IMG/VR virus record: IMGVR_UViG_3300024265_000080 | Location: 1 to 48,308 of that record | Strand: one strand, 5' to 3' | DNA length: 48,308 nucleotides | Origin: a virus | Shown: piece by piece, positions 7,374-37,213 of the stretch | Layout of the letters: every line of letters starts with the position of its first letter | Numbering within the stretch: the first letter of the stretch is position 1 | The notes under the pieces: generated by a model | What the model saw: the letters and a program-made list of their open reading frames with translations, nothing else | Databases searched by the model: none | Told to the model about the DNA's origin: nothing | Position numbers and translations under genes: made by a program

Positions 7374-7403
7374 ATTTTATCATACATATCATAGTTTTGT
7401 CAA
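7374..7403 (-). promoter_or_regulatory. internal late promoter (copy 2)
   Basis: On the minus strand, TTGACA and TAAAAT are separated by 18 bases, with an extended TG before the -10 (TGATAAAAT). About 38 bases here are almost identical to the promoter at 20678-20707, differing at only two positions. It faces the scaffold and capsid genes and lies just downstream of the second GIY-YIG gene. Confidence 0.8.
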
Positions 7404-14983: not shown

Positions 14984-16063
14984 TTATATACTCCAGCTTG
15001 TTAATCCAAAATAAGATGCTCTTTCACCACTCGCAGGTTTTTGACTTGGACTCCTATATCCACCGCCGCCGTATTCGTACTGAGGATATTCATAACCGCC
15101 GCCATATCCACCATATCCGCCAGTTCCAGTAGGCCATTCAATCACATCAAAAAATTCGCCAGTGAATAAAGCAGAGTCATCTACCATTGCCCAAAAAGCC
15201 TGTACTTCGCCAGGATTTCTTGGATCAATTTCATTAATCTCGTACAGGGAATCAAAATAATTCACTTTACCCCTGTCTACCCATTGGTCGCTTTCATCAA
15301 GAGCCCATCTATCGTGAAGGGGCACACCAGGCATTTCGTACATACCTCGTTGCCCATACTTCCCTATGTCTTTCTCGGCTTGCACTTCAGGATCATAGTA
15401 ATCAGCCCCAAACTTGGACATTTGGTATGAGTAGTTTTTTCTTTTGCTCAATTCGATATTCTTTTCAGTAACGAGAGCATTTAATTTTTCGTCCATATCC
15501 TCAATAGGGGTATCCCAGACTTCGGCAAATCTTGGGTCTTGCCAATATGGATTAACTTGTGCTGGATTCCATGCGCCAGCAGGAGTTTCTATACTGTAAT
15601 CTTCTGTACCCATGGTAGCGATAAACTCAGTAAATTGAGGCATATTCCAATCTCGGGGGGACTTCATACCACCTTCGGTTTCTTCAGCAGTTCCATACCC
15701 GGGATCAAAGTATTTAGGAGGAATATTTACCGAAGCACCCGCTGGAGGTTTTTGTGTTGTATTAACTTTAGCCGTACTGCCTGGTGGTAAATCATATTTC
15801 TCGTCAAGAGATGCCCAACTATCGCCAACGCTGGCAACAGCAGTATACTTGGTAGGAACTTTCCCACCTTGAATTTGCGTTCCGATACGACGATCAGTTA
15901 TTGTTGCTGCTGCTTTTCTCTTTGCGTTTGCTCTCCTTGCTTCTTGTTTATCAAGTTGTCGCCGAGTTAATGCAGAACCGCCCCGTTGCCTTCTTTTGGC
16001 TGCTGATTTTGACCCATATTTTGATTGTTGGTACGAACCAACTCGACGATCACCTATCGCCAT
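14984..16063 (-). CDS. LysM-like domain virion protein
   Basis: This 359-aa protein has a strongly basic N-terminal ~55 residues (KSAAKRRQRGGSALTRRQLD). A LysM-like module covers about residues 75-115: KYTAVASVGDSWASLDEKYD, then N and a VNIPP ending, matching the Vxx-GDs-x-L-y-N-G-iP layout. The middle is acidic and the C-terminus Gly/Tyr-rich (GGYGGYGGGYEYPQYEYGGG). LysM binds peptidoglycan or chitin-like glycans, so this may be a virion protein that touches the cell wall during entry. It directly abuts the giant gene (TAA-ATG) and overlaps the preceding small gene. Confidence 0.65.
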   Translation of the reverse strand: MAIGDRRVGSYQQSKYGSKSAAKRRQRGGSALTRRQLDKQEARRANAKRKAAATITDRRIGTQIQGGKVPTKYTAVASVGDSWASLDEKYDLPPGSTAKVNTTQKPPAGASVNIPPKYFDPGYGTAEETEGGMKSPRDWNMPQFTEFIATMGTEDYSIETPAGAWNPAQVNPYWQDPRFAEVWDTPIEDMDEKLNALVTEKNIELSKRKNYSYQMSKFGADYYDPEVQAEKDIGKYGQRGMYEMPGVPLHDRWALDESDQWVDRGKVNYFDSLYEINEIDPRNPGEVQAFWAMVDDSALFTGEFFDVIEWPTGTGGYGGYGGGYEYPQYEYGGGGYRSPSQKPASGERASYFGLTSWSI

Positions 16064-20677: not shown

Positions 20678-20707
20678 ATTTTATCATACATATCATGCTT
20701 TTGTCAA
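20678..20707 (-). promoter_or_regulatory. main late promoter (copy 1)
   Basis: The minus strand shows TTGACA, an 18-base spacer and TAAAAT preceded by TGA (extended -10), all duplicated almost exactly at 7374-7403. It is the only promoter-like element ahead of the lysis and packaging genes. It overlaps back-to-back with the plus-strand promoter of the sulfotransferase cassette. Confidence 0.8.
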
Positions 20708-20713
20708 GGGTAT

Positions 20714-20723
20714 GTGGTATAAT
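20714..20723 (+). promoter_or_regulatory. extended -10 promoter, leaderless sulfotransferase message
   Basis: GTGGTATAAT gives a consensus -10 with an upstream TG; no good -35 is present. TATAAT ends six bases before the ATG at 20730, so the transcript probably starts at or next to the start codon. The same TATGTGGTATAATG string occurs in front of the HNH gene on the other strand near 25.2 kb. Confidence 0.65.
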
Positions 20724-20729
20724 GAAAAT

Positions 20730-21299
20730 ATGATAATATCTAAAAAGAAGAAGTTTGTATTTGCGTCTATTCCCAAGACAGGGACTACCTCAATAGAACG
20801 CACCTTGATGAAATACGAGGATGCGTTTGCAACAGTATCCTCTAAAAAACACACTCCATTCTTGCAAGTAGAACATTTACCACTCCCATATTTCAAGTTC
20901 TGTTTCTTCAGGAACCCATGGGATCAGTTCGTTTCCCTGTATGAGTACCGTAAAGAGAGAAGGAAATTTGAAAAGCTACCTTTCAATGCGTGTTTTGATG
21001 AGTGGGTAGAAAATGCGATACTCTGTTTTGAGTACAAGATAGAAACAGAATACGGGTTCATATTGGACGCTAGTGGATTTCCTATTCCCGGTATAAAGGT
21101 TTACAAATATGAGGAGATATATGATGCTTGGGGGGATATTTGCAACAGACTAAATATTACAGACAAGCTCCCCCACTATAACTACACTAAACGCCGTCAC
21201 TACTCCACCTACTACACAAATAAAACCAAGCACATCATAGCGAGAAAGTGCTGGCGTGAAATAGAAATGATGCAGTATCAATTCAAGGAGAGTGAGTAA
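20730..21299 (+). CDS. sulfotransferase family protein
   Basis: This 189-aa protein carries the PAPS-binding loop SIPKTGTTS at residues 13-21. The 3'-phosphate-binding segment FFRNPWDQFVSLYEY follows at about 59-73. The C-terminal YTNKTKHIIARKCWREIE segment, ending in QYQF, matches the end of carbohydrate sulfotransferase domains. It would transfer sulfate from PAPS to a hydroxyl of a glycan or small molecule. I start at ATG 20730 because the upstream ATG is part of the promoter. It heads a tightly coupled cassette with two glycosyltransferases and a cytidylyltransferase. The acceptor is unknown. Confidence 0.85.
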   Translation: MIISKKKKFVFASIPKTGTTSIERTLMKYEDAFATVSSKKHTPFLQVEHLPLPYFKFCFFRNPWDQFVSLYEYRKERRKFEKLPFNACFDEWVENAILCFEYKIETEYGFILDASGFPIPGIKVYKYEEIYDAWGDICNRLNITDKLPHYNYTKRRHYSTYYTNKTKHIIARKCWREIEMMQYQFKESE

Positions 21300-21880
21300 T
21301 GGAACTAAATATTCTACTAACAGGATTAGAGGTAAAGGATTATACTACGCAAGCGATAAGTACGATTCGCCAACACAATCCCGAAGTGGATATAATCTGG
21401 ATCCATGCTGGGGAAGAACCCCCTGGTCCAATGGGTTGTAAAGTCCTCCACGCTCCAGGTGCCTCGATGACGGAAGCCTTTAACCAAGGCATCCTGCAAA
21501 ACCCTGCTACATGGCATTTGATAATCAACGATGATGTTATTTGTTGTGGCAGTATGAATGTCAGTAACTTGGATGAGAAGTCACTTTACGCTCCTGGTAT
21601 GGGAAGATCCGACAAGGTTGGAGGAAGGGAATTTCTGTTAGGGTGGGCTTTACTTCTCAGTGATTCCGCTTGGCAAGCAGGAGTACAGTACGACACCAAC
21701 CTAATAAAGTGTAATTGGGAAGATTTTGATATTCACATGCAAGCTAAATCAATGGGGTACGGTACGGTTCCTGACCCAACGTTATTTCCGTTCAGGCATT
21801 TGAAAGCATCTGGGCGAGTCATTGGTTCTGATTTTTGGTGGAAGAACCTAGCATACGTCAAGGAGAAGTGGAACGTATGA
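21299..21880 (+). CDS. GT-A family glycosyltransferase
   Basis: This 193-aa protein has a Rossmann-like start (MELNILLTGLEVKDYTTQAI), an acidic metal site LIINDDV at about residues 74-80, and the downstream segment GWALLLSDSAWQAG...NWEDFDIHMQAKSMGYG. Together these match a short GT2-like fold. The final FPFRHLKASGR includes a basic patch. The start overlaps the sulfotransferase stop (TAATG) and the end overlaps the cytidylyltransferase start (ATGA), so the cassette is made as a unit. The sugar and acceptor cannot be read from sequence. Confidence 0.75.
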   Translation: MELNILLTGLEVKDYTTQAISTIRQHNPEVDIIWIHAGEEPPGPMGCKVLHAPGASMTEAFNQGILQNPATWHLIINDDVICCGSMNVSNLDEKSLYAPGMGRSDKVGGREFLLGWALLLSDSAWQAGVQYDTNLIKCNWEDFDIHMQAKSMGYGTVPDPTLFPFRHLKASGRVIGSDFWWKNLAYVKEKWNV

Positions 21881-22272
21881 AAGTACTTACGATAGGCACG
21901 TTTGACCTTCTGCATGTCGGACACATAGAACTATTCAACTATGGGGCGCAGTTTGGTGAATTAGTCATTGGGCTCAATACAGATGAGTTTGTACTACAAT
22001 ACAAGGGCGAACTACCAGTTCAAAACTACGATAAAAGGTACGACAACATAGTACGCTTTATCGGTATAGAGCCACTGAAGAATGACAGTGCTGGCAGAGA
22101 GCTTGTAGAGTGGGTTGAACCAGATTGTATTGTAGTTGGTATGGACTGGCATGAGGCGGGGTACTTGAAGCAAACAGACTTGACTAATGAGTTTCTAAGT
22201 GATAATAATATCTCAGTGATATATACACCAAGAACATCTGGAATATCTAGCTCTACTTTGAGGAAAAAATGA
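21877..22272 (+). CDS. TagD/GCT-like cytidylyltransferase
   Basis: This 131-aa protein is almost the exact length of glycerol-3-phosphate cytidylyltransferase. It shows the nucleotidyltransferase motif HVGH at residues 13-16, the GTFDLLH start, and the second signature RTSGISSSTL at about 119-128. The reaction expected is CTP plus a polyol-phosphate giving a CDP-polyol and pyrophosphate, a precursor for teichoic-acid-like or glycan phosphate linkages. The start ATG 21877 has AGGAG 12 bases upstream and overlaps the previous stop. Glycerol, ribitol or another alcohol phosphate are all possible. Confidence 0.85.
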   Translation: MKVLTIGTFDLLHVGHIELFNYGAQFGELVIGLNTDEFVLQYKGELPVQNYDKRYDNIVRFIGIEPLKNDSAGRELVEWVEPDCIVVGMDWHEAGYLKQTDLTNEFLSDNNISVIYTPRTSGISSSTLRKK

Positions 22273-22823
22273 AAATAGCTGTAATCTCTACCTCATTCTA
22301 TATGAAGGAATACGGGCAGCCATTCATGGACTCACTTCAAAAAACTAATCCTGAAGTGGATTCAGTGATGATAGACCAATCAGAAAATAGATTTCGCAGC
22401 AAGGCGTGTGCTTGGAACTACGGGGCAAAGCTAGTAGATAATGCGGAAATTTTATTTTTTTGTGATGATGACTTAATCTGGGCAGGTAAGATCATTCTGC
22501 CAGAAGCAGAGTTGTTTGGGCCTACCCTTCTGAAGTCAGGGCATTTCGGGTTTGACGTGGGATGTGATTTCTTAGAAGGTTGGTGTATAGGAGTTACGCG
22601 GAAACTGTATGAGAGGATAGGAGGGTTTGACGAAAAGTTTATCAACTGCGGGATATCAGACTGTGATTTCAGTATCCAGGCTCATAAACTTGGAGTAAGT
22701 GCTGTTAGATGGACGTTCCCCGGGGTGCATCTACGGATTGGTACGAAATTTAAAATCAACTTTAACGAACCCGAAACAAGACTAATGAATATTGCGTATC
22801 TAAAAGGAAAGCATGGATTATGA
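22269..22823 (+). CDS. GT-A family glycosyltransferase
   Basis: This 184-aa protein begins MKIAVISTSFYMKEYGQPFM and has the acidic metal site LFFCDDDLIW near residue 66. The acceptor-side region YERIGGFDEKFINCGISDCD is characteristic of GT2-like enzymes. It ends FNEPETRLMNIAYLKGKHGL, as full-length members do. It is coupled to the cytidylyltransferase (ATGA) and to the following Cys-rich gene (ATGA). A second sugar transfer in the same pathway is inferred. Confidence 0.8.
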   Translation: MKIAVISTSFYMKEYGQPFMDSLQKTNPEVDSVMIDQSENRFRSKACAWNYGAKLVDNAEILFFCDDDLIWAGKIILPEAELFGPTLLKSGHFGFDVGCDFLEGWCIGVTRKLYERIGGFDEKFINCGISDCDFSIQAHKLGVSAVRWTFPGVHLRIGTKFKINFNEPETRLMNIAYLKGKHGL

Positions 22824-23011
22824 GAATATACATATCTAACCACGTACCAGAAAACCAGTTTGATAAAGAACGCTGCAAGACTTGCAAAGCTCACGAAATG
22901 GAAGGGAATAGAGTAGTCTGTACCAACCTTCGTGCAGTTCACTATATAATTGGCAACTCTCTATGCGAGGTATACGATGTTTGTGAGAATAGTATTGCTG
23001 ATGCTGACTAG
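22820..23011 (+). CDS. Cys-rich small protein
   Basis: This 63-aa protein has Cys pairs CKTC at residues ~19-22, then VVC and LCEVYDVC, enough for a small zinc site. It starts with an ATGA overlap on the glycosyltransferase stop, hence is expressed with the glycan cassette. I do not recognise the family. A role as a regulator or partner of the enzymes is only a guess. Confidence 0.6.
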   Translation: MRIYISNHVPENQFDKERCKTCKAHEMEGNRVVCTNLRAVHYIIGNSLCEVYDVCENSIADAD

Positions 23012-23057
23012 TTTTATGATTGGTTTTGTTTGGGGAGCTTTCTGGATGGCTAAATAA
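22977..23057 (+). CDS. 26-aa membrane peptide
   Basis: ATG 22977 follows CGAGG by seven bases and opens a frame encoding FVRIVLLMLTSFMIGFVWGA, one membrane helix with a short basic end. It overlaps the Cys-rich gene by 35 bases and ends just before the minus-strand terminator. The hydrophobic content is far above chance for a random short frame, but expression is unproven. Confidence 0.4.
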   Translation: MFVRIVLLMLTSFMIGFVWGAFWMAK

Positions 23058-23059
23058 AA

Positions 23060-23098
23060 ACCCCCGACATTGCAGCATCGTTGAGAGGCTTCGGGGGT
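23060..23098 (-). terminator. rho-independent terminator of the 25.2-23.1 kb minus operon
   Basis: Stem ACCCCCGA/TCGGGGGT (8 bp) has a 23-base loop. On the minus strand it is followed by TTTTATTTA. It ends the minus-strand genes and can also stop read-through from the plus-strand cassette, because the two units converge here. Confidence 0.7.
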
Positions 23099-23156
23099 AT
23101 ATTGTAGAAGTGACTGGATTTTTATTTCCGCCAGCCCGGAAAGGGGTGTTGAAGAG

Positions 23157-23408
23157 TTATCTTCCACTCCCGCCAGGTGCTTGCTCCTTTACTTCTCTGC
23201 ACCGAGAAGGATATTCTTTCCAATACCATACAACTGATTGGTAAGAATACATTAACTGACACTTTTCGCATGTCACTTTTTCAGCGTCAGTTGTAAAAAA
23301 ATCACTAACGTATTTTGGATGTTTATATACATCCTTTCCAAAAAATCTACACAGAGCAAGCCATCCATCAGCAGTTGACTTTACAGATATCATGTGAATA
23401 AGTTTCAT
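23157..23408 (-). CDS. small protein with CxxC motif
   Basis: This 83-aa protein starts at ATG 23408 (MKLIHMISVKSTADGWLALC). A longer frame to 23480 would run through the tRNA-like RNA and is not credible. It has CEKC near residue 50, then aromatic-rich YSYQSVVWYWKEYPSRC, and a Gly-rich end. It is probably read from the promoter that also makes the tRNA-like RNA. Function unknown. Confidence 0.6.
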   Translation of the reverse strand: MKLIHMISVKSTADGWLALCRFFGKDVYKHPKYVSDFFTTDAEKVTCEKCQLMYSYQSVVWYWKEYPSRCREVKEQAPGGSGR

Positions 23409-23423
23409 AAAACAATCTCGTAG

Positions 23424-23516
23424 TGGACATGCCGGGAATCGAACCCGGGTATTGGGTTGCCTGAAGTTGCCTTTCGGCATTCACCAGAAGCGTACCAATC
23501 GAGGCCTTGCATGCCC
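23424..23516 (-). ncRNA. tRNA-like RNA without a normal anticodon arm
   Basis: The 93-nt minus-strand RNA has a 7-bp acceptor stem (GGGCATG/CATGTCC, one G-U) and a discriminator A. A perfect T arm is present (CCGGG, loop TTCGATT, CCCGG), as is a 4-bp D-like arm with TTGGTA in the loop. I cannot form a standard 5-bp anticodon stem with a 7-base loop. The best fold of that region is a long hairpin, TGAA-TGCC/GGCA-AC-TTCA, closed by a GAAA tetraloop. A weak tRNA-Phe reading (loop GTGAATG) needs a mismatched stem and a 24-nt variable region. A promoter lies just upstream. It could be a real but odd tRNA, a decayed tRNA or a tRNA mimic. Confidence 0.6.
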
Positions 23517-23747
23517 AGAGCAGGTTACTGTTGTTCTTATCTTACAGTATTTTTGTTTATTTGTCAAGTGGCGCGAATTTTTCAAATTTTTCTCAGATTC
23601 AACCAATTCAGTTGAATCTCTTTCCTCCCAATCTTTACATGCAGATAAAAAAGCTACGTCCTCATTTTTTATAACACACCACAACCAATCACCTATTTCA
23701 GCGTCCGGCTTTGCGTACTTACACAAATAGCACCGCTTGTCTTTCAT
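23481..23747 (-). CDS. Cys-rich small protein
   Basis: This 88-aa frame begins MKDKRCYLCKYAKPDAEIGD with CYLC, a single Cys in WLWC and another in SACKDW, compatible with a four-Cys metal site in the first 45 residues. The last ~40 residues overlap the promoter and 5' part of the tRNA-like RNA, so they may be a by-product of that RNA's insertion. The start overlaps the upstream gene's stop (TCATATTAC context), giving a coupled operon. Confidence 0.55.
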   Translation of the reverse strand: MKDKRCYLCKYAKPDAEIGDWLWCVIKNEDVAFLSACKDWEERDSTELVESEKNLKNSRHLTNKQKYCKIRTTVTCSGHARPRLVRFW

Positions 23748-24205
23748 ATTACCTCATCTCCTACTGATGCCCAATTTTCGTTATTTGGTTTCTTGAACCA
23801 AACTCCTCTTTCATCTTTATCCCACTTCTCGGGATGACAAGACCTACAAGTGCATCCATATTCTCTCATAGTTTTGTTGAGTGGTTCACTGGCTCGTTCT
23901 ACATATCCATGCTGTTGACAATCACTATCCCCACATTTTGGACACTCCTCTTCAAAGCTCATGTCATTCTTCCCAACGCATTTCTCGCAATAACATGCTT
24001 TCACTCCAACACCACGACCTTGTACGTATTCCTGCTCACAGACTGACCTTGGAACTCCACAGTCAAACGTTCTCCAATTCTCAGGCAATTTATCCTCAAA
24101 TAGCGCAAGGATTTCATCGGCTAGTTTTATATACCACCTGGTAGAAGACTCTCTGTGAATTTTTAAGTCGTTCTTTTGTAGTATCTCAATTATCTTGGTT
24201 TTCAT
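23744..24205 (-). CDS. Cys-rich protein with repeated N-terminal domain
   Basis: This 153-aa protein starts MKTKIIEILQKND; residues 1-40 are a helical domain that resembles the N-terminus of the next upstream gene (MKDKIIEILENN). After that come many Cys/His residues: CYCEKC, CPKC...DCQQH and CTCRSCH, at least two zinc ribbons. It ends with FKKPNNENWASVGDEVI. Coupled by ATGA overlap. Nucleic-acid binding is plausible; no enzyme motif. Confidence 0.65.
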   Translation of the reverse strand: MKTKIIEILQKNDLKIHRESSTRWYIKLADEILALFEDKLPENWRTFDCGVPRSVCEQEYVQGRGVGVKACYCEKCVGKNDMSFEEECPKCGDSDCQQHGYVERASEPLNKTMREYGCTCRSCHPEKWDKDERGVWFKKPNNENWASVGDEVI

Positions 24206-24462
24206 TCTTTCTCCTCGGTAACAAGAGAGTTGTCGCCTACCTCAATAATAGGTTTCCTAAAAGGTCCAGGCTTCTCCTCTAGCTGTAAACGTATCCTTCG
24301 AGCTTGGGACTTACTTCTCATCTTTACCCAACCATCAGTTTGCAAAAGCTCCATGATTTCGTCGGCTATCATTTCTAGCACAGGTTGAGAGTCGTCACCA
24401 AATCCCTCAATACATATATCAATGCTATTATTTTCCAGTATCTCAATTATTTTGTCTTTCAT
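24202..24462 (-). CDS. small helical protein, paralogous N-terminus
   Basis: This 86-aa protein starts at ATG 24462, where GGAG lies nine bases upstream; the longer open frame would begin in non-coding sequence. The first ~42 residues (KIIEILENN ... LEMIADEIMELL) repeat the domain of the downstream 153-aa gene without its Cys part. A basic stretch follows (RSKSQARRIRLQL). Function unknown. It may bind the same target as its longer relative. Confidence 0.6.
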   Translation of the reverse strand: MKDKIIEILENNSIDICIEGFGDDSQPVLEMIADEIMELLQTDGWVKMRSKSQARRIRLQLEEKPGPFRKPIIEVGDNSLVTEEKE

Positions 24463-24502
24463 TGATTGCTCCTTTTTCAACAAATGGATTGTATGAAATC
24501 TA

Positions 24503-24600
24503 GGAGTTGAACTCCCGTTTTTCTTGACGTTTAGTGTCGTTATGGGGTACAAAACCCCCTGTATCTACACGTAATGTAAACCTGATGGGCCCATCAGGTT
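24503..24600. repeat. cluster of three inverted repeats
   Basis: The interval between two minus genes holds GGAGTT/AACTCC (1-base centre), GGGGT/ACCCC (5-base loop) and a perfect 22-base palindrome with arms AACCTGATGG/CCATCAGGTT around GC. The palindrome touches the HNH stop codon. It could end HNH transcription or bind a dimeric regulator of the next genes. No T-run of note follows. Confidence 0.6.
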
Positions 24601-25198
24601 ATGTCGGTATTCCTTCACAAGCTCTTTCCCACTCAACTACTACTTGCATAAATTCTTCACTTCGATAATCATTACTATTGCGACTACCTTTGCTTAAATT
24701 GCATGGTCCGCAAAGAACCTGGAGATTACTAATCCCATTGTATCCGCCATTAGCAAGTGGGACAATATGATCTATCTGTAAGTTCAAAACCTTTCTGCAT
24801 TTGAGGCACCGGTATTTAGCTAAGTTTAATAGAAATTTTACATCTTCCCCGGTGTGATCTCCGCCGTTGTTTAGTTTCCTGCTTTTACGACGAGCAGTAT
24901 TTGCTCTGCACTTCTCAGGATTATTTTTTTGCCACGCTCTAGTTCGTTCTCTCGCTTTCTCTCTGGCCTTCTTAGGACTGTCTTTCCACCACCACCTTAT
25001 TCGCTTAGTGCTCAATTTTTTGTTGTTTTTGTAATACTTTTTGTAGTATTCTCTCTGATATTCTTGCCGCGCCTCGCTTTTATACCGAAGATTACTGTGA
25101 CATCCTTCACACAGTCCCTTTACTTGGTGATTACTACCAGGAGTAGTACACTCAGGATTCTGGCACTCATCGTATTTCTTGCTCCACATCGGTTTCAT
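24599..25198 (-). CDS. HNH endonuclease
   Basis: This 199-aa protein has an N-terminal zinc motif (CQNPEC...GLCEGCH, residues ~10-35), a long Lys/Arg/Trp-rich helix (residues ~40-105), and the C-terminal HNH core YRCLKC...LQIDHIVPLANGG...NLQVLCGPCNLSKGS. The DH and final N of the core are intact. I start at ATG 25198 because TATAAT lies six bases upstream, which makes upstream ATGs part of the promoter. A free-standing homing nuclease is likely; a packaging-associated HNH is less likely because it is far from terL. Confidence 0.85.
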   Translation of the reverse strand: MKPMWSKKYDECQNPECTTPGSNHQVKGLCEGCHSNLRYKSEARQEYQREYYKKYYKNNKKLSTKRIRWWWKDSPKKAREKARERTRAWQKNNPEKCRANTARRKSRKLNNGGDHTGEDVKFLLNLAKYRCLKCRKVLNLQIDHIVPLANGGYNGISNLQVLCGPCNLSKGSRNSNDYRSEEFMQVVVEWERACEGIPT

Positions 25199-25204
25199 AA
25201 ACCC

Positions 25205-25258
25205 ATTATACCACATAACTATTGCAGTAATTGGTCAAATGTGGCAAATTACTGCAAT
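25205..25258 (-). promoter_or_regulatory. promoter of HNH gene with overlapping operator-like inverted repeat
   Basis: The minus strand carries TGTGGTATAAT ending six bases before the ATG. Directly upstream is a perfect 12-bp inverted repeat (ATTGCAGTAATT/AATTACTGCAAT, 14-base gap) at 25221-25258, where a -35 would normally be. The layout suggests a repressor or activator site controlling a leaderless message. Confidence 0.6.
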
Positions 25259-25726
25259 AAGCAACTTATTGCCTATTAGAGACATTTATGGGACTTAATG
25301 GGCAAGATATTACCTATAAGATATTGTTAGTTAAATCATCTTTCGTTACGTAATCACTAACATATTGTGATTTAGCTAAGTGACGCTAAATGTTACGGTT
25401 AGTATTATCATTAGTAAAAATTACATGTATTGTAGATACTTTACTATATAGCAGCACTTCAATATGTTTTCAAGTTAGTCCATATAGTGAAGTATACGCG
25501 GGCGGTGGAGGGAACCCCAACATACAACAACAACAATAATAACGAACGTGGTGCCCCCCTCACCACTATTTACACGCAAATTTTTACTAGAACATATATT
25601 CTACATCTCACATGCGCTGTCCCTTGATTGTGAAACCTGTCACGAATAGAACAAACGTTCTGTACGGAACGTACACATACGCAACGAAGAGAACAAACAT
25701 GACCTTACAGAATTGTTAGGTTATTC

Positions 25727-25757
25727 TTACACATATTCTTATAGAATTGTGTATAAT
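25727..25757 (+). promoter_or_regulatory. early plus-strand promoter candidate
   Basis: TATAAT at 25752-25757 is a perfect -10. TTACAC 19 bases upstream is a weak -35. The AGAATTGT repeat ends just before the -10 and recurs 34 bases upstream, suggesting a regulator bound beside the polymerase. It would read the small early genes to 29.8 kb. Confidence 0.55.
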
Positions 25758-25855
25758 GAAGTCATAAGTAATTCCCCAGGGATAATGGTTATTCTATAAA
25801 TGGGTTTATGGGGATGGGTAATATTCAGAGGTAAACTAACTAGGAGAGCAAAACA

Positions 25856-26077
25856 ATGAAAAACAAAGACTTGAAATCAAATATTATGACAGGATACGAA
25901 GTAAAAACACGCACAGTTGAAATTCTTGAGCCTGACGGCAGGGGCATTGCCTCTAAGTTTGCTATATACCACGTTTATCAAGACGATGGGAACAATAGAA
26001 CTTATTGTCATGCGTATCCTGACTATCTCAGTATGATTACTGCACATCCTGAACTGAAACCACGAATAAAAGTATAA
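25856..26077 (+). CDS. small early protein, unknown
   Basis: This 73-aa protein has GGAGAG ten bases before ATG. The sequence (VKTRTVEILEPDGRGIASKF, then CHAYPDYLSMI) suggests one beta-hairpin domain. It is the first gene behind the early promoter. I do not recognise it; phage genes in this position often redirect host processes. Confidence 0.7.
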   Translation: MKNKDLKSNIMTGYEVKTRTVEILEPDGRGIASKFAIYHVYQDDGNNRTYCHAYPDYLSMITAHPELKPRIKV

Positions 26078-26126
26078 GGCATACCTTATACTAATCGGCC
26101 TGACTCAGGCCGCACACCTTATACTA
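26071..26126 (+). other. tandem hairpins between early genes
   Basis: AGTATAAGG/CCTTATACT (9 bp, 4-base loop) is followed at once by CGGCCTG/CAGGCCG (7 bp, 3-base loop), then a second ACCTTATACTA. The first stem contains the stop codon of the upstream gene. No T-run follows, so RNA processing or a protein-binding site is more likely than termination. Confidence 0.55.
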
Positions 26127-26143
26127 TAATTGGAGGTAAAACA

Positions 26144-26350
26144 ATGCGAATGACAAGGTATCAATATAAAATACAGACAGTGTACCAACATTTATTCACA
26201 GACGAATATGACATTATATCAATAAATGCCAATAGCGAGGAACTAGCCGAATCAGTACTATCAAGAATGTTATCCGAAAGAGATGACTGTTATAGCAGCG
26301 ACAGCAGTTATCAAACATATCAATTTGAATTAGTAAACATATTCCACTAA
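26144..26350 (+). CDS. small early protein, unknown
   Basis: This 68-aa protein has GGAGG nine bases before ATG. It has beta-like flanks (YQYKIQTVYQHLF, TYQFELVNIF) and an acidic central helix (SEELAESVLSRML), as in small ferredoxin-like folds. Its 21-base translation start region, including AATTGGAGGTAAAACAATG, is repeated exactly in the next gene. Confidence 0.7.
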   Translation: MRMTRYQYKIQTVYQHLFTDEYDIISINANSEELAESVLSRMLSERDDCYSSDSSYQTYQFELVNIFH

Positions 26351-26387
26351 TACTCTTATACCCCTGTATCTATATCAAGCTAGGAGG
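26347..26387 (+). repeat. repeated intergenic leader, copy 1
   Basis: CTAATACTCTTATA, a short variable part, then ATATCAAGC and AGGAG, ahead of the dual-start gene. A second copy at 26662-26702 precedes the next gene. The shared leader implies that gene-plus-leader units were duplicated or swapped. Confidence 0.55.
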
Positions 26388-26392
26388 TAACT

Positions 26393-26659
26393 GTGCAAGT
26401 AGTAAAATTGTTATACATAATTTGCGTAATAGTATTCACAGCTTGTGTGATTTTATTCATAATTGGAGGTAAAACAATGAAAATAATAACAACACCAAGA
26501 GAGTTGATAGATAAAGGCTTATGGGATAGATACTGTGAAATATCTGGGATGTCTGTATATGCAGTAAATGAGGGCTATCCTGACGATACGCCTATATCGC
26601 TAGATCTTCCCAAATATAAACCACTAATCTTGAGACTGTGCTACCTTGAAACTAACTAA
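26393..26659 (+). CDS. dual-start membrane/soluble small protein
   Basis: The long form (88 aa) starts at GTG 26393 behind AGGAGG and opens with a membrane helix (LLYIICVIVFTACVILFIIG). An in-frame ATG at 26477 has its own GGAGG and would give a 60-aa soluble form, MKIITTPRELIDKGLWDRYC onward. Both starts have ideal spacing, so two products are predicted. Function unknown. Confidence 0.6.
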   Translation: MQVVKLLYIICVIVFTACVILFIIGGKTMKIITTPRELIDKGLWDRYCEISGMSVYAVNEGYPDDTPISLDLPKYKPLILRLCYLETN

Positions 26660-26661
26660 TC

Positions 26662-26702
26662 ACTAATACTCTTATATAGGGCATTCATATCAAGCCAGGA
26701 GA
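26662..26702 (+). repeat. repeated intergenic leader, copy 2
   Basis: This has the same order of CTAATACTCTTATA, ATATCAAGC and AGGAG as the copy at 26347-26387, with different middle bases. Confidence 0.55.
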
Positions 26703-26706
26703 AACA

Positions 26707-26973
26707 ATGAACAGAATAGAACGGATAAGAAAAAAGATTGAAGAAAATCCAGAGGGCGCCCTGGCTATATTGGATATGATGAATCAAGTAGCTGTTAGGG
26801 AAGTCGTTATTGAAATATGTAATGACGATAATCTTTCACCTGTTGGGAAAGCAGACAGAGTACTGATTTATCTTGACGTTCCAATGGATAAAGTGTTGGA
26901 AGATATAGAAATCAAAGCGATAAAAGATAGTTTAGAAAATTATAGCCAAGATTGCCTAGACAAGGAGAACTAA
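26707..26973 (+). CDS. small helical early protein
   Basis: This 88-aa acidic protein has AGGAG eight bases before ATG and is mostly helical (IERIRKKIEENPEGALAILD, then VAVREVVIEICND). The middle resembles a short helical bundle. Its stop overlaps the next start (TAATG). Function unknown. Confidence 0.7.
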   Translation: MNRIERIRKKIEENPEGALAILDMMNQVAVREVVIEICNDDNLSPVGKADRVLIYLDVPMDKVLEDIEIKAIKDSLENYSQDCLDKEN

Positions 26974-27098
26974 TGAATATCAAATCAAGAGTAAAGAATC
27001 CACGCTTATACGCTGCATGGCTCATTCAGATATACGATAAAGGACATCAAGCGATTGTATTACGTTCACTATTGGGGATCTATAGCAAGGAGGAGTGA
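26973..27098 (+). CDS. 41-aa early peptide
   Basis: MNIKSRVKNPRLYAAWLIQI continues to SLLGIYSKEE. AAGGAG lies seven bases upstream, and the gene is coupled on both sides (TAATG in, TGATG out). It fills the gap between two genes exactly, which supports expression. A basic N-terminus with a hydrophobic centre; function unknown. Confidence 0.6.
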   Translation: MNIKSRVKNPRLYAAWLIQIYDKGHQAIVLRSLLGIYSKEE

Positions 27099-27298
27099 TG
27101 GAAAACCTTACAAATGAAGAGCTTTTGTTTGACCGTCAAGAAAGTTTCAACGATATAGTTTCCTGTTTAGTCGCTAAGTCTCAGGACAGAGAGGACTATG
27201 AAGAAAGACTGAATGGAAACCTGAGCATTATAAATACAATCTACAAAGAATGCAAACGGCGTGGGTTTGACCCTGCTCAATACAAAGAGCAGCCCTAG
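27098..27298 (+). CDS. small helical early protein
   Basis: This 66-aa acidic helical protein (NEELLFDRQESFNDIVSCLV, then a helix to KRRGFDPAQYKEQP) starts at ATG 27098 behind AGGAGG. The GTG one codon earlier is part of the coupled TGATG junction. Function unknown. Confidence 0.65.
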   Translation: MENLTNEELLFDRQESFNDIVSCLVAKSQDREDYEERLNGNLSIINTIYKECKRRGFDPAQYKEQP

Positions 27299-27312
27299 AT
27301 TCTATAATAGTG

Positions 27313-27342
27313 GATACTCTGGAGTGGTTCCTTCAGGGTATC
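27313..27342 (+). other. 12-bp RNA hairpin in a 126-base leader
   Basis: GATACTCTGGAG pairs with CTTCAGGGTATC over twelve positions (two G-U) with loop TGGTTC. It sits in a gap with no gene, upstream of a small membrane protein. The G-U pairs favour an RNA function over a DNA operator. No T-run follows. Confidence 0.6.
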
Positions 27343-27424
27343 GACTATATTGCAAGTAGCTTGCGAAATCGGGATGGAAATAACTGTTGTAATCACTTAT
27401 AATCTATACCAGGAGGTATTACAG

Positions 27425-27574
27425 ATGCTTACATTATTATTCTGTTTCTGTATCATCATGTGGAGGCCGCCGTTTGTGCCAATAAATATCGCATTGGTAC
27501 TGACAACAATGCTTGCCTTTTTCGCTTGGGATGTGTACGAAATAAGAGATTTTATTTGGAGAAAGCCAAACTAA
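27425..27574 (+). CDS. 49-aa two-helix membrane protein
   Basis: ATG 27425 follows AGGAGG at ideal spacing; a longer open frame upstream lacks any site. Membrane helices cover about residues 1-13 (MLTLLFCFCIIMW) and 18-36 (INIALVLTTMLAFFAWDVY), with a basic end. It could act on the host membrane early in infection. Confidence 0.6.
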   Translation: MLTLLFCFCIIMWRPPFVPINIALVLTTMLAFFAWDVYEIRDFIWRKPN

Positions 27575-27602
27575 CTAACCACTATACAATAGGAGGTAAC
27601 TG

Positions 27603-27821
27603 ATGAACAGAAACGAACATTTAGAATGGTGTAAAAAAAGAGCGTTGGAATATGTTGATGCTAGTGATTTGACAAATGCTTATGCTTCGATGACTTCTGA
27701 TTTAGGAAAACATCCTGAAACATCTGGGCATATAGGAATTGAATTAGGAATGGGATTACTAATGATTGGAAAGCTATCAACAGATGCCGAAATGCGAAAA
27801 TTCATTGAGGGATTCAACTAA
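27603..27821 (+). CDS. conserved phage protein, unknown function
   Basis: This 72-aa protein has the pattern HLEWCKKRALEYVD, then SMTSDLGKHPET and MRKFIEGFN. I recognise this layout from many unrelated phage genomes, where it stays uncharacterised. AGGAGG precedes the ATG. The conserved WCK and IEGFN ends suggest a compact helical protein. Confidence 0.75.
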   Translation: MNRNEHLEWCKKRALEYVDASDLTNAYASMTSDLGKHPETSGHIGIELGMGLLMIGKLSTDAEMRKFIEGFN

Positions 27822-27850
27822 TACAACCACTTACAACTAGGAGGTAACTG

Positions 27851-28018
27851 ATGAATAAGAATGAGAAGATAAAGGTAGCCAAGCAAATGATTGAGGAATT
27901 TGGCGGAAGTCCGCATACAATGAATGAGGGCGAGATACATACCAAGTCAGAAACAGTTTGGATGTTTGAACACTGGCTTGAACAACAAGAGGAGGTAACT
28001 AATGAATGTACAAATTAA
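27851..28018 (+). CDS. 55-aa early protein
   Basis: It starts behind AGGAGGTAACTG, the same leader as the preceding gene. It is helical and charged (KNEKIKVAKQMIEEFGGSPH, then TVWMFEHWLEQQEEV). The stop lies 17 bases inside the next gene. Function unknown. Confidence 0.6.
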   Translation: MNKNEKIKVAKQMIEEFGGSPHTMNEGEIHTKSETVWMFEHWLEQQEEVTNECTN

Positions 28019-28250
28019 TAATTGGGTTGATGACGAATATCATGGGAGAACAGTAACACACGCTACCATAACAGATAGCAACGGTTATATCTGGGAGTAT
28101 GATGCGTATGCGTATCAATCAAATCACCGGGAACTGAGAATACCAGCAGCAGACAAGGAATTTCCAGAGGAACACCAGAACGAAAACGGATACGATGCAC
28201 GATCACTTGATGAAGCTCTACTGACGCTGATGGATGGAGGGTATATCTAA
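28002..28250 (+). CDS. small early protein, unknown
   Basis: This 82-aa protein has AGGAGG upstream inside the previous gene. It has beta-rich INNWVDDEYHGRTVTHATIT and YIWEYDAYAY segments followed by an acidic C-terminus. Its stop overlaps the next start (TAATG). Function unknown. Confidence 0.7.
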   Translation: MNVQINNWVDDEYHGRTVTHATITDSNGYIWEYDAYAYQSNHRELRIPAADKEFPEEHQNENGYDARSLDEALLTLMDGGYI

Positions 28251-28621
28251 TGAATGATATTAGTACTCATAATGATGGGTGGTGGATAAGATTCAATGAC
28301 CCGAAACAAAGCAGTAGTTATACTGGTAACCAAACAGGGAAATACTTATTTTTCTGTAAAAACCAAGAAACATTATTGAAGCTCTGTAAACATGAGATAA
28401 CCGAACATGGATTTATCTATGCAAAGGTATCAACAAACGCCAACGATAATGATTATGTCTGTTGTCTGTATTGGATGGACGACAGCAGAAAGCATGAGCT
28501 TGCTCAGAGGTATAGGCAACGAGAAGATATTAAGTACCGGTATTGGAAATCTAATGCAGATACATTGGCTGGAAAATATAGTAAAAATTATTTAGACAAG
28601 GAGGCAACTAATGACAACTGA
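28250..28621 (+). CDS. conserved phage protein, unknown function
   Basis: This 123-aa protein has the order GKYLFFCKNQETLLKL, HGFIYAKVS, VCCLYWMDDSRKHELAQRY and KYRYWKSNADTLAGKYS. This order recurs in phage genomes without known function. The C-terminal YRYWKS and GKYS parts are the most conserved. Coupled upstream through TAATG. Confidence 0.75.
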   Translation: MNDISTHNDGWWIRFNDPKQSSSYTGNQTGKYLFFCKNQETLLKLCKHEITEHGFIYAKVSTNANDNDYVCCLYWMDDSRKHELAQRYRQREDIKYRYWKSNADTLAGKYSKNYLDKEATNDN

Positions 28622-28772
28622 CACTCACATCCTACATATTGTAGACGCTTACACTACCTGGCCTCTCTTGTGCTGGAACTGTGGAAGTGATAAGGTGGTG
28701 TACTCAAGCCATGTAAACGATAGCCTTTGCCAGTGTTGTAATGAATGGCAACTAAATGAGGAGGAAGAATGA
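28611..28772 (+). CDS. 53-aa zinc-ribbon protein
   Basis: Residues ~21-24 CWNC and 40-43 CQCC form a four-Cys ribbon around KVVYSSHVND. AGGAGG lies seven bases before the ATG. It overlaps the upstream stop by 11 bases and ends EEEE with an ATGA link to the next gene. Nucleic-acid or protein binding is likely. Confidence 0.65.
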   Translation: MTTDTHILHIVDAYTTWPLLCWNCGSDKVVYSSHVNDSLCQCCNEWQLNEEEE

Positions 28773-28894
28773 ATATCAAGCAATGGTTTGCTCTACTAAA
28801 GCAAGACACATTAATAAGTCGTATAACTGATTTCATTTATTACAGAATTACTAGTCGAATGCGCTGGACAATGAGACAATGGAAAAACAAATAA
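28769..28894 (+). CDS. 41-aa basic peptide
   Basis: MNIKQWFALLKQDTLISRIT, then DFIYYRITSRMRWTMRQWKN. Strongly basic with many aromatic residues; coupled by ATGA to the zinc-ribbon gene. It could bind nucleic acid or membrane. Function unknown. Confidence 0.55.
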   Translation: MNIKQWFALLKQDTLISRITDFIYYRITSRMRWTMRQWKNK

Positions 28895-28909
28895 ACGAGG
28901 AGCAACCCA

Positions 28910-29143
28910 ATGACTAACCCTGAAAAAGTAGATTTCTTAGGAGAAGCAAAGAAGTACGCAGTAGGATTTAGAGAAAAGGGATTCCATAATAAAATCTATC
29001 TCATAGAATCTGTGTTGTTCACAGGAATTGCTATTGCTGAACAGCTTGAGAAGATGAACAAGATAAGTGCCTTGAGCTTGCAACAACATCCAAGGTTTGT
29101 CCTGAACAGCGACCTTGCCGGCATATTGCAGAAGGACAAATGA
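28910..29143 (+). CDS. small early protein, unknown
   Basis: This 77-aa protein starts behind GAGGAG. It is mostly helical: EAKKYAVGFREKGFHNKIYL, then VLFTGIAIAEQLEKMNK. The middle is mildly hydrophobic but I would not call a membrane helix. The end overlaps the next start (ATGA). Confidence 0.65.
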   Translation: MTNPEKVDFLGEAKKYAVGFREKGFHNKIYLIESVLFTGIAIAEQLEKMNKISALSLQQHPRFVLNSDLAGILQKDK

Positions 29144-29274
29144 AAGAACTACTCTGTGCAGGAGCCATGTTAGCAAGCGTCACGATAGTACCGATGTTGT
29201 TCTTGATTGCGCTACGTGCTGTGTACCTTGCTGACTTGCGCAACCAAAAATATCCACCTGAATACAAGGAGTAA
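29140..29274 (+). CDS. 44-aa membrane protein
   Basis: One hydrophobic helix (CAGAMLASVTIVPMLFLIAL, residues ~6-25) is followed by a basic tail ending YPPEYKE. Coupled by ATGA to the upstream gene. Function unknown. Confidence 0.6.
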   Translation: MKELLCAGAMLASVTIVPMLFLIALRAVYLADLRNQKYPPEYKE

Positions 29275-29278
29275 TAAA

Positions 29279-29779
29279 ATGGGTAGAGAAATAAGAATGG
29301 TGCCGCCTAATTGGGAACATCCCAAGCAAGACAATGGACATTACGAACCAATGTTTGACGAGGATTTTGACACCGCCCTCAATGAATGGATAGAGGGATA
29401 TGAACTATGGAAAAAGGGAGAACATCCCGAACAACAAGAGGAAGAATGTAACTATCCTTTTTGGGAGTGGATGGGTGGTCCTCCTAATCCAGACTCCTAC
29501 CGACCAGCCTTCACAGAAGATCCAACTTGGTATCAGACGTATGAAAATGTATCAGAAGGAACACCAGTAACACCACCCTTTGCAACCAAAGAGGAGTTAA
29601 TTGAATACCTAGTTGAACATGGTACATTCTGGGACGTACGCAGGGTCGCAGATGGCAGACAAGACAGGGTTGGATGGGATAGAAAAGCAGCCGAGCAATT
29701 TGTCAAGGCTGAATACGCACCTTCAGGCATGATAGTAGGTGGCACTTGCTACTCTCCCCGAGACGGGTTCCCCACCTAA
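29279..29779 (+). CDS. conserved phage protein, unknown function
   Basis: This 166-aa protein starts MGREIRMVPPNWEHPKQ, preceded by AAGGAG. The parts REIR-VPPNWEHP, YRPAFTED, YQTYENVSEGTPVTPPF and YAPSGMIVGG form a pattern seen in many phages and some plasmids with no assigned function. I reject a start at 29207 because it overlaps the membrane gene. It is the last gene before the terminator. Confidence 0.8.
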   Translation: MGREIRMVPPNWEHPKQDNGHYEPMFDEDFDTALNEWIEGYELWKKGEHPEQQEEECNYPFWEWMGGPPNPDSYRPAFTEDPTWYQTYENVSEGTPVTPPFATKEELIEYLVEHGTFWDVRRVADGRQDRVGWDRKAAEQFVKAEYAPSGMIVGGTCYSPRDGFPT

Positions 29780-29809
29780 TCAAGTGACTTGAATATTATA
29801 TAAGCATAT

Positions 29810-29836
29810 AGGAGTGTTGCCAACAACAACACTCCT
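29810..29836 (+). terminator. terminator of the early plus operon
   Basis: AGGAGTGTTG/CAACACTCCT, a perfect 10-bp stem with a 7-base loop, is followed by TTTGC. The short T-run makes it moderate. It separates the plus early genes from convergent minus genes. Confidence 0.65.
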
Positions 29837-29855
29837 TTGCATAACATCTCTTTAT

Positions 29856-30287
29856 CTATTCTGGATCCTCATTCTCTATATCCCCCGTTAGTTTTTCCTC
29901 AGTCCATCCCAATATCTTATCAAGTAAGCCTGGATGTTTAGCAATTAGCTTTGACATGGTATCACCACTCGCACCATCACAAGTAGGGCAGGGCTCACCA
30001 CTGTCAGGGTCCCAAAGCCCAAGCTCCTCCCTTCGAGTAGGGCTTAGTGCAAGTAACTTATTATAAGCACTTACAGTACCGCTCTTGCCTTCTACGAATA
30101 TTCTACCAAGAGTCAAGATGTCAGCCGGAAACGGCTCAGTGAACCCCATGGCAAGCAAGTTCATCTTTAGTTCTATCTCTCCCTTGTTCTCCCGCGCTAC
30201 CTTCCTACCCTCTGCTAGTTTTTCAAGGTGTTCAGGTGATAGCTTATGTCCAGGCTTGAACTGACCAAGCTCATTTCTTTCAGCCAT
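29856..30287 (-). CDS. unknown protein with CxxC
   Basis: This 143-aa protein begins ERNELGQFKPGHKLSPEHLE. The GQFKPGHK string is a short motif seen at the N-terminus of several phage DNA-associated proteins. Helices follow, then GEPCPTCDGASG near residue 100. A small-terminase or regulatory role is conceivable but unsupported. The start overlaps the upstream stop (TAATG). Confidence 0.6.
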   Translation of the reverse strand: MAERNELGQFKPGHKLSPEHLEKLAEGRKVARENKGEIELKMNLLAMGFTEPFPADILTLGRIFVEGKSGTVSAYNKLLALSPTRREELGLWDPDSGEPCPTCDGASGDTMSKLIAKHPGLLDKILGWTEEKLTGDIENEDPE

Positions 30288-30979
30288 TACGCATCCTCAA
30301 CAGCTTTGATATTTTGATACACCTTAGCTGACTTCTTATCCTTCACTCCAACCATGTATAGTTTCACCGCACCAGTTGGAATAGGTGTATGATCCGCGCC
30401 CACTACTGGCACAAACAAGGGGAACATACTTCTAAATATTTTCTCTCCTACCTCAGTAGCGTAGTAATGTCCTGCTGCTGGCTTAGTTCCATTGAAGAAG
30501 TTCACCCATGTTCCATCGTATGAGTAGCAGTTAGCCAACACTTCATAGCTCTGGCCTTCGAGGATGTCATCCATCTTGCTACCTTTCAGCCCAAGATACT
30601 GAGTGCCATCACCAATAGGAGTAGCAACAACAGGTGTACCATCATCAAACGGTACTGCTGGTGCATCAATAACCACACCACCAAGCTCTTTTGCTGTCTC
30701 AACAGTAGATACTACTTGAATCAACTTAGGTACTTCATCAACAGGAGTAACGGGGAGTGGTGCTGGTGCTACTTGTCCTTGCTCAGGATGTTCTGCCTTA
30801 TTGTAAGTACTTATAAAAGGCTTATACCCCTCGTCCTGCATGTAAGCAATTACAGCTTCCAAGTCACTCAACGCATCAAGAGCTGTGTCTTTCCGGGCAG
30901 TAACACTCACCTGCCATCCATTCTTGCTTATTGCACTTGTGAAAGCTACCCCAGAATATTCATGCACATTCTTATTCAT
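30287..30979 (-). CDS. unknown phage protein (230 aa)
   Basis: The N-terminal domain (residues 1-65) is beta-alpha: GVAFTSAISKNGWQVSVTAR, then a helix SDLEAVIAYMQDEGYKPF. A Pro/Val-rich linker (residues ~70-125) joins it to a C-terminal beta-rich half with YEVLANCYSYDGTWVNFFNG. The two-domain layout with a flexible linker resembles phage DNA-binding accessory proteins, but I cannot name the family. It is the largest gene of the minus early block. Confidence 0.65.
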   Translation of the reverse strand: MNKNVHEYSGVAFTSAISKNGWQVSVTARKDTALDALSDLEAVIAYMQDEGYKPFISTYNKAEHPEQGQVAPAPLPVTPVDEVPKLIQVVSTVETAKELGGVVIDAPAVPFDDGTPVVATPIGDGTQYLGLKGSKMDDILEGQSYEVLANCYSYDGTWVNFFNGTKPAAGHYYATEVGEKIFRSMFPLFVPVVGADHTPIPTGAVKLYMVGVKDKKSAKVYQNIKAVEDA

Positions 30980-31177
30980 CTATCCTCCTCTCTCTAAGTT
31001 TAAGTTTTCCATCATCTCGTCTTGATAGTCGTCCTCTTGTGCTTGGAATTGCAAGCCCTTGTCTAGCCAGCTATCATAAGTGTCAAGAAGTACAGCCTCT
31101 ATTGCTGTCAATTCATATCCGCTGCCTGCTAACCAGTCACCAAATCTTTTTAGCCTTTCCCCATCTATCTCTTTCAT
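30980..31177 (-). CDS. small acidic protein A
   Basis: This 65-aa protein starts at ATG 31177 behind GAGGAGG. Its end (LQFQAQEDDYQDEMMENLNL then RGG) resembles the end of protein B at 31357. The terminal Gly-Gly-stop codons double as the ribosome-binding site of the next gene (GGAGGATAG-ATG). Function unknown. Confidence 0.65.
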   Translation of the reverse strand: MKEIDGERLKRFGDWLAGSGYELTAIEAVLLDTYDSWLDKGLQFQAQEDDYQDEMMENLNLERGG

Positions 31178-31356
31178 CACTCCTCCTCGCTCATGATTTG
31201 TATCATTTGTTTCAAGTCATCAACGTCTACTATGCCATCAATAAGTATAGTGTTCTCGCCCTGATACCATCGAATAAAAGGTCCATTATTAGTTTCGTAG
31301 CACACCTTGTCCCTAACAGGATATGATCTCTCGAAAAATTCAAGCGGTTCTTCCAT
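31177..31356 (-). CDS. 59-aa early protein
   Basis: It starts MEEPLEFFERSYPVRDKVCY behind GGAGG. The middle is beta-like (GPFIRWYQGENTILIDG) and the end helical and acidic. TGATG couples it to the next gene. It fills a gap that otherwise holds nothing. Function unknown. Confidence 0.65.
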   Translation of the reverse strand: MEEPLEFFERSYPVRDKVCYETNNGPFIRWYQGENTILIDGIVDVDDLKQMIQIMSEEE

Positions 31357-31563
31357 CTATCCTCCTCTACTTAGTATATCTTCCATTTGCTTTTCGTCTT
31401 TATAGTCTGCTTCTTGTTCTTGTGCTTCAAGTCCTGCATCAAACCCACACTTGTACCCTAATGCAAAGTCAGTCTTTGACTTCTCGTAATTTTTCGCATC
31501 GTAAACGATTGAAATATTTTTCTTGCCATATAACTGTATAAATTTATCATCCATCTCTTTCAT
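31357..31563 (-). CDS. small acidic protein B
   Basis: This 68-aa protein starts MKEMDDKFIQLYGKKNISIV behind GGAGG. A segment FALGYKCGFDAGLEAQEQE leads into the acidic tail shared with protein A and again ends RGG-stop over GGAGG. Partial paralogy with protein A is visible only at the C-terminus. Confidence 0.65.
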   Translation of the reverse strand: MKEMDDKFIQLYGKKNISIVYDAKNYEKSKTDFALGYKCGFDAGLEAQEQEADYKDEKQMEDILSRGG

Positions 31564-31564
31564 G

Positions 31565-31699
31565 TTAGCCTCCAATAAAAAACAAAAGTAACTCTCTTAG
31601 TAATATGTAAGCCAAGGCTACCCCGCCTACCTTCCAGTATCCCAAGATAAGAGACACTACCGCTATAAATGCCATTATTCCTACGTCTATTTGGTTCAT
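31565..31699 (-). CDS. 44-aa two-helix membrane protein
   Basis: It starts at ATG 31699 behind GGGAGG. It has two hydrophobic helices (IMAFIAVVSLILGYW and ALAYILLRELLLFFIGG) with a short basic turn. It is the first gene of the minus early block, behind a structured leader, so its level is probably controlled. Confidence 0.65.
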   Translation of the reverse strand: MNQIDVGIMAFIAVVSLILGYWKVGGVALAYILLRELLLFFIGG

Positions 31700-31703
31700 A
31701 GTT

Positions 31704-31772
31704 CCTCCCAGGTGAGTGGCAGCACCTTTATTTATAATATAGGAGGCGGTACTGCCACTTGAGAATATTATA
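31704..31772 (-). promoter_or_regulatory. promoter and anti-SD leader of the minus early block
   Basis: On the minus strand, TGGTATAAT (31772-31767) gives an extended -10. Transcription would start near 31760, at a 12-bp hairpin AGTGGCAGTACC/GGTGCTGCCACT (one U-G). The loop contains CCTCC (31746-31742), complementary to the GGAGG ribosome-binding site at 31708-31704. Loop-to-site pairing could block translation. This is inferred from sequence alone. Confidence 0.55.
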
Positions 31773-31842
31773 CCACGTTTATTGGGAACATCACTCCCAC
31801 TTTTCATTCTAATACAACGTTAACAATTGCATTTGGAGCGTG

Positions 31843-31851
31843 TGATATAAT
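31843..31851 (+). promoter_or_regulatory. extended -10 promoter, leaderless methyltransferase message
   Basis: TGATATAAT ends seven bases before the ATG at 31859, and there is no ribosome-binding site in between. A leaderless transcript is predicted. No clear -35 is present. Confidence 0.6.
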
Positions 31852-31858
31852 TGTAACC

Positions 31859-32425
31859 ATGAAAACTATACTTGATTTATGCGGAGGGACTGGTGCCTGG
31901 AGCAAGCCTTATGTAGAAGCAGGCTACGACGTCAAGCTAATAACATTGCCAGAATATGATGTGCGATTATATTCTCCGCCAGATAATGTACATGGAATAT
32001 TAGCTGCACCGCCATGTACTGAATTTTCATATGCCAAACATTTTCATGGCAAGGGAAATTATAACCACGACTTCAGAGCAGGGCTTGAGGTAGTAAGCGC
32101 ATGTATGAGAATTATACTAACGGCGAAACCTATGTGGTGGGCATTAGAAAACCCGCGTGGTTATTTGTTGAAATGGCTAGGAAATCCAGTATTAGAATTT
32201 GATCCCTGGCAGTACGGAGATAACTACCAAAAGAAAACCTGCTTATGGGGACACTTCAATACACTAGTGCCAATAGCATCTAAAAAACCAAAGGGTATTA
32301 TAAAGTTTTCAATGCTAAAGAGTAAAGAAATATTTCCCGAATACTATGGCAAACTCACAAGGCAAGAGCGCAGGGCAATTACTCCACCCGGGTTTGCTCA
32401 AGCCTTCTTTGAAGCTAACCAATAG
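31859..32425 (+). CDS. DNA cytosine-5 methyltransferase, short phage type
   Basis: This 188-aa protein shows motif I LDLCGGTGAWSKPY (residues 5-18), motif IV with catalytic C53 in APPCTEFSYA, and motif VI WWALENPRG (residues ~93-101). The family transfers methyl from AdoMet to C5 of cytosine. It is about half the length of standard enzymes and lacks an evident target-recognition domain, as in a compact type I recall from many phages. Specificity therefore cannot be guessed. It heads the middle plus operon behind a leaderless promoter. Self-modification against host restriction is the likely aim. Confidence 0.8.
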   Translation: MKTILDLCGGTGAWSKPYVEAGYDVKLITLPEYDVRLYSPPDNVHGILAAPPCTEFSYAKHFHGKGNYNHDFRAGLEVVSACMRIILTAKPMWWALENPRGYLLKWLGNPVLEFDPWQYGDNYQKKTCLWGHFNTLVPIASKKPKGIIKFSMLKSKEIFPEYYGKLTRQERRAITPPGFAQAFFEANQ

Positions 32426-37198: not shown

Positions 37199-37213
37199 AG
37201 GAGATATGGTATA

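Follow-up and report, generated by a model that had tools for sequence, protein, structure and literature searches.

In the stretch of viral DNA analysed here (the window; 48,308 nucleotides, positions 1 to 48,308 of IMG/VR record IMGVR_UViG_3300024265_000080), three operon-head genes begin a few bases behind a TATAAT box, which raises the question of where their mRNAs start. At site 1 the box at 20718-20723 (+) is followed by 6 nt (GAAAAT) and the ATG at 20730; at site 2, by 6 nt (GGGTTT) between the box at 25210-25205 (-) and the ATG at 25198; and at site 3, by 7 nt (TGTAACC) between the box at 31846-31851 (+) and the ATG at 31859. The first T of the box lies 12, 12 and 13 bp upstream of the respective ATG. 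All three boxes belong to a perfect extended -10 element, TGTGnTATAAT, with the sequence TGTGGTATAAT at site 1 (20713..20723, +) and site 2 (25205..25215, -) and TGTGATATAAT at site 3 (31841..31851, +). A preliminary description of this DNA had located the same boxes and noted a sequence common to two of them; we confirm the coordinates, with spacings of 6, 6 and 7 nt, and identify the common sequence as a 14-mer, TATGTGGTATAATG, in sites 1 and 2. No Shine-Dalgarno (SD) sequence was found before any of the three ATGs, and a -35 hexamer of the form TTGnnn is absent 15-18 bp upstream of all three boxes.

The usual distance from the last T of a -10 box to the transcription start is 6-7 nt. This would put +1 on the A of ATG 20730 at site 1, on the A of ATG 25198 at site 2, and at ATG 31859 or one base earlier at site 3. 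A first-order Markov estimate over 68 curated starts in the window and four spacings gives 0.010 expected TGnTATAAT boxes near starts against three observed (P ~2e-7), and chance placement is rejected on this basis. Promoters fused directly to the start codons, producing mRNAs with no leader, are the likely explanation for all three genes.

Gene 1 (20730..21299, +) encodes a sulfotransferase (PF03567, phrog_3347) and heads a cargo operon that continues with glycosyltransferase-like and cytidylyltransferase genes. Gene 2 (24599..25198, -) encodes an HNH endonuclease (PF01844, PF14279); upstream of it, a 640-nt non-coding region (25217-25855) separates divergent operons. Gene 3 (31859..32425, +) encodes a DNA methyltransferase (phrog_757) and heads the replication operon, which includes a DnaB-like helicase. 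Sites 1 and 3 are divergent from leftward operons whose genes are SD-led. The leftward promoter of the structural operon, TTGACA-18-TAAAAT (20678..20707, -), is interlocked with site 1, whose box lies about 10 bp from its -35 element, so that two polymerases could hardly bind at once. A second copy of this leftward promoter, at 7374..7403 (-), has no leaderless partner in the window. The operon divergent from site 3 provides a contrast case, in which an extended -10 element (31767..31775, -) precedes a first gene, at 31699, that has a long leader with GGGAGG. The same leader carries an inverted repeat, AGTGGCAGTACCGCC ... GGTGCTGCCACT (31697-31770, -), that could form a regulatory hairpin.

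SD-led initiation dominates elsewhere in the window, although the preliminary description went too far in assigning strong AGGAGG sites to all other genes. An SD core of at least 4 nt precedes 58 of the 68 curated starts and is absent from seven starts besides sites 1-3, several of which are uncertain TTG or GTG starts. One more exact match to TRTGnTATAATN6ATG occurs in the window, at 37205, and was rejected as a leaderless start: it is a decoy, the gene beginning at 37214, inside the motif, with AGGAG.

Two syntenic relatives were found. The first, L004/L263, spans 6.3 kb, and its portal and sulfotransferase are ~59% identical to those of the window. Its sulfotransferase gene, which supports the start assigned to gene 1, is internal in its operon and starts at a GTG preceded by GGGAG. 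At the place corresponding to site 1, L004 has another head gene, at 2470, with a weak Peptidase_M78/IrrE match below the curated cut-off; it is preceded by TTGACA-17-TACACT, 6 nt and ATG, with no SD. This promoter differs from sites 1-3 in that a TTGACA -35 element is present at 17 bp. In the divergent promoter region of L004 (2400-2440), the direct repeat AAGTGGCA occurs twice, about 20 bp apart, possibly as operators.

The second relative, G457 (44.5 kb), is roughly collinear with the window. Its position 15972 carries TATGTGGTATAAT, 6 nt and ATG, with no SD, ahead of a methyltransferase-domain gene. This locus, beside a leftward promoter, is the counterpart of the 7.4-kb region where the window has no leaderless partner. 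At the counterpart of 20.7 kb, G457 has the conserved leftward promoter and no rightward box, and the sulfotransferase was sought in G457 and not found. With a promoter of its own and a patchy presence among relatives, the sulfotransferase cargo at site 1 shares two features with phage morons. The site-3 promoter is homologous in G457 (AACGTTAACAATT...TGATATAAT), where it drives a different cytosine methyltransferase through a 16-nt leader that contains AAGGAG. At the G457 site-2 promoter (TGTGTGGTATAAT), 15 nt separate the box from the ATG, giving a predicted leader of ~9 nt without SD; site 2 was judged through G457 only, because the HNH gene has just a weak relative. The leaderless state is thus not kept at the G457 promoters homologous to sites 2 and 3. 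The preliminary description proposed to look for the extended -10 motif with 6-nt spacing in related phages; it recurs as TATGTGGTATAAT in G457, and the 6-nt spacing recurs behind the TACACT box of L004.

In a Clostridia genome, a relative of the methyltransferase (L253, 74%) has an SD and lies inside an operon behind an SSB-like gene. Site 3 is also carried by a contig 99.9% identical to the window, too close to bear on conservation. Megablast against the phage collection returned no related records, and a TerL peptide scan of viral contigs gave no matches. TerL and portal searches returned only distant Manatee Spring records, whose operon heads are without such promoters.

The window and G457 also share an RNA gene of 96-103 nt (window 23421-23516, -; L278 2895-2997, -). 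The match of the two copies to tmRNA (Rfam RF00023) is limited to its tRNA-like ends, an mRNA-like tag region being absent; the scores are 37.8 and 46.7 bits against a gathering score of 47, with E values of 1e-11 and 1e-16, and ARAGORN detected neither copy. In the window the gene has a promoter of its own, TTGACA-17-TAAGAT. The gene possibly encodes a minimal tmRNA-like RNA of this phage group.

We propose that sites 1-3 are vegetative (sigma70/sigmaA-type) extended -10 promoters joined to start codons. No -35 box would be needed for RNA polymerase to recognise TGTGnTATAAT, and the transcript would begin 6-7 nt further on, with the A of the ATG (for site 3, with the ATG or the base ahead of it). 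The first gene would be translated by 5'-AUG (70S-type) initiation and the downstream genes via their SD sites. Comparison with the relatives shows the operon-head promoter to be conserved and the first gene to be replaced together with its leader; now and then the ATG of a newly acquired gene would come to lie precisely where transcription begins, creating a leaderless head. Since these promoters are part of the lineage, with first genes and leaders exchanged and the ATG at times placed at the start, leaderless transcription is likely. It is conceivable, though doubtful, that the bidirectional module of a leftward SD-led promoter and a rightward TATGTGGTATAAT leaderless promoter is a docking site for cargo genes; if so, any ORF with its ATG at the start site would be expressed without a ribosome-binding site.

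The same spacing is found in unrelated DNA. Scans of viral and bacterial collections with TGTGGTATAATN6ATG returned at least 120 viral and at least 118 bacterial stretches. Among the listed matches that were analysed, an ORF of at least 60 aa begins at 42 of 85 viral and 64 of 119 bacterial ones, a minority of these sitting inside longer ORFs. We then took motif-bearing DNA, 1.07 Mb from viruses and 0.86 Mb from bacteria, removed the anchor sites to avoid circularity, and measured the distance from all other TGnTATAAT boxes to the ATGs of ORFs of at least 80 aa. ATGs without SD peak 6-7 nt after the box (16/198 viral and 14/129 bacterial sites, anchors excluded), thin out at 8-9 nt and all but disappear at 10-16 nt. 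SD-led starts first appear at 17 nt and never within 16 nt. Such a distribution would result if the box fixed the start of the mRNA and that start coincided with the ATG. The informative feature is the spacing peak rather than the absence of SD, which is in part forced in the survey: a box only 6-7 nt from an ATG hardly leaves space for an SD. Selecting the surveyed loci by the presence of one such site favours genomes that use leaderless starts.

These data bear on the possibility that transcription starts further upstream, giving leaders without SD, and that the TATAAT boxes are there by coincidence or are used for secondary starts. The 640-nt region upstream of site 2 could hold other promoters, and decoys exist, both at 37205 and in G004 and G006, where extended -10 motifs also lie near ATGs of genes that are truly SD-led further downstream. 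However, coincidence is difficult to reconcile with the probability of the spacing given above, site 1 is only ~100 nt from the divergent gene, SD-led starts in the survey keep their distance from such boxes, and in the relatives other genes show the same spacing. We regard upstream starts as unlikely.

Less probable still is that leaderless heads are a regulatory mark, by which first-expressed genes are translated under conditions favouring 70S initiation. Site 3 does head an operon with a helicase gene, and extended -10 promoters need only the housekeeping holoenzyme, which can be counted in favour of this idea. However, an SD leader follows the G457 homologue of this replication-operon promoter, the operon of small genes from 25856 begins with an SD-led gene, and the other leaderless genes here and in the relatives are accessory (sulfotransferase, HNH, methyltransferase, IrrE-like). 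The preliminary description had combined both ideas, leaderless mRNAs and a mark of the first-expressed genes. The leaderless part is supported by the spacing, the unrelated loci and the relatives, while the early-gene part is not supported, the SD-led homologue and head and the accessory cargo counting against it. As predicted from these sequences, leaderlessness goes with the gene that happens to be fused to the promoter and does not define a class of expression.

We reject as very improbable a coding role for the conserved TATGTGGTATAAT, in which genes 1 and 2 would start at an upstream ATG and encode MWYN...: this ATG is in frame at -18 at both sites, and mechanical ORF lists begin the genes there, inside the promoter (20712 and 25216), but the frame is forced by the 6-nt spacing, neither ATG has a usable SD upstream, the L004 sulfotransferase begins at the residue matching 20730, and the motif recurs ahead of unrelated proteins. 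The ORF-list starts are probably artefacts, a warning that ORF callers can set starts inside leaderless promoters of this type.

For the fused promoters favoured here, it is the host that decides how well leaderless messages are translated. The preliminary description had also suggested searching candidate hosts for the motif, and the outcome depends on the clade. Counts of an ATG 2-14 nt behind TGTGGTATAAT show no preferred spacing in 99 Clostridia genomes (among the matches listed, 11 of 150 at 6 nt) and a peak in 29 genomes from the phylum of a Saccharibacteria bin, with 14 of 30 at 6 nt, nine of those 14 coming from the query genome G008. This suggests that extended -10 leaderless use is strong in the sampled Patescibacteria/Saccharibacteria, with no detectable trend in the sampled Clostridia; if the host is Clostridia-like, the missing 6-nt peak in unselected genomes means that leaderless use is not general there. 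G008 itself (locus L169) contains 27 exact TGTGnTATAATN6ATG sites in ~0.6 Mb and none of the reversed control pattern, an apparently heavy use of leaderless starts. A literature search on leaderless genes in Saccharibacteria found no paper. Relatives of the methyltransferase occur in 4/291 Clostridia genomes versus 0/145 genomes of the Saccharibacteria phylum, and a portal model search for the host matched 0/398 and 0/286 genomes.

Leaderless architecture is already known from other bacteria and phages, and the three heads described here are a new instance of it. They add examples, based on sequence, of leaderless heads of operons from an uncultured phage lineage, and the relatives indicate how such heads can arise: a new first gene takes its place at the start site of a promoter that is retained. 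Site 3 resembles the DpnII operon of S. pneumoniae in having a methyltransferase head gene behind an extended -10 promoter without a -35 hexamer, and the dpnM mRNA is reportedly leaderless. According to two papers that cite Sabelnikov et al. 1995 (J Mol Biol 250:144) on the DpnII operon promoter, the extended -10 element alone suffices, and the head gene encodes a DNA methyltransferase (PMC7745072, PMC8264293). DpnII is a chromosomal restriction-modification cassette, whereas site 3 belongs to a phage operon, and the likeness drawn here is one of architecture. Among phages, the leaderless transcript of lambda is said to be the cI mRNA. Lambda is named as the first leaderless case (PMC3160421). 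Both are phage leaderless transcripts, predicted in our case, but cI is a single regulated lysogeny gene, while the heads found here belong to accessory and replication operons.

Zheng et al. (2011, PMC3160421) place the -10 box of bacterial TA-led leaderless genes ~12 bp upstream of the start and describe a TG peak in genomes of low GC content. Sites 1-3, with their predicted 5' ends, are similar in the position of the -10 box (TANNNT, ~12 bp upstream), the absence of SD and the TG extension. Unlike in that survey of host chromosomes, they are confined to operon heads in a phage otherwise dominated by SD-led genes. In S. pyogenes, a species with extended -10 promoters, 8.6% of mRNAs are leaderless by dRNA-seq (PMC6431027). 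In Deinococcus-Thermus, a -10 motif directly before ORFs leads to leaderless mRNA, and some annotated ORFs contain the -10 motif (PMC12340547), resembling the MWYN artefact of genes 1 and 2. There, the arrangement is genome-wide, affects about a third of genes and uses TANNNT; here, it is seen at three operon heads, each with a perfect extended TATAAT.
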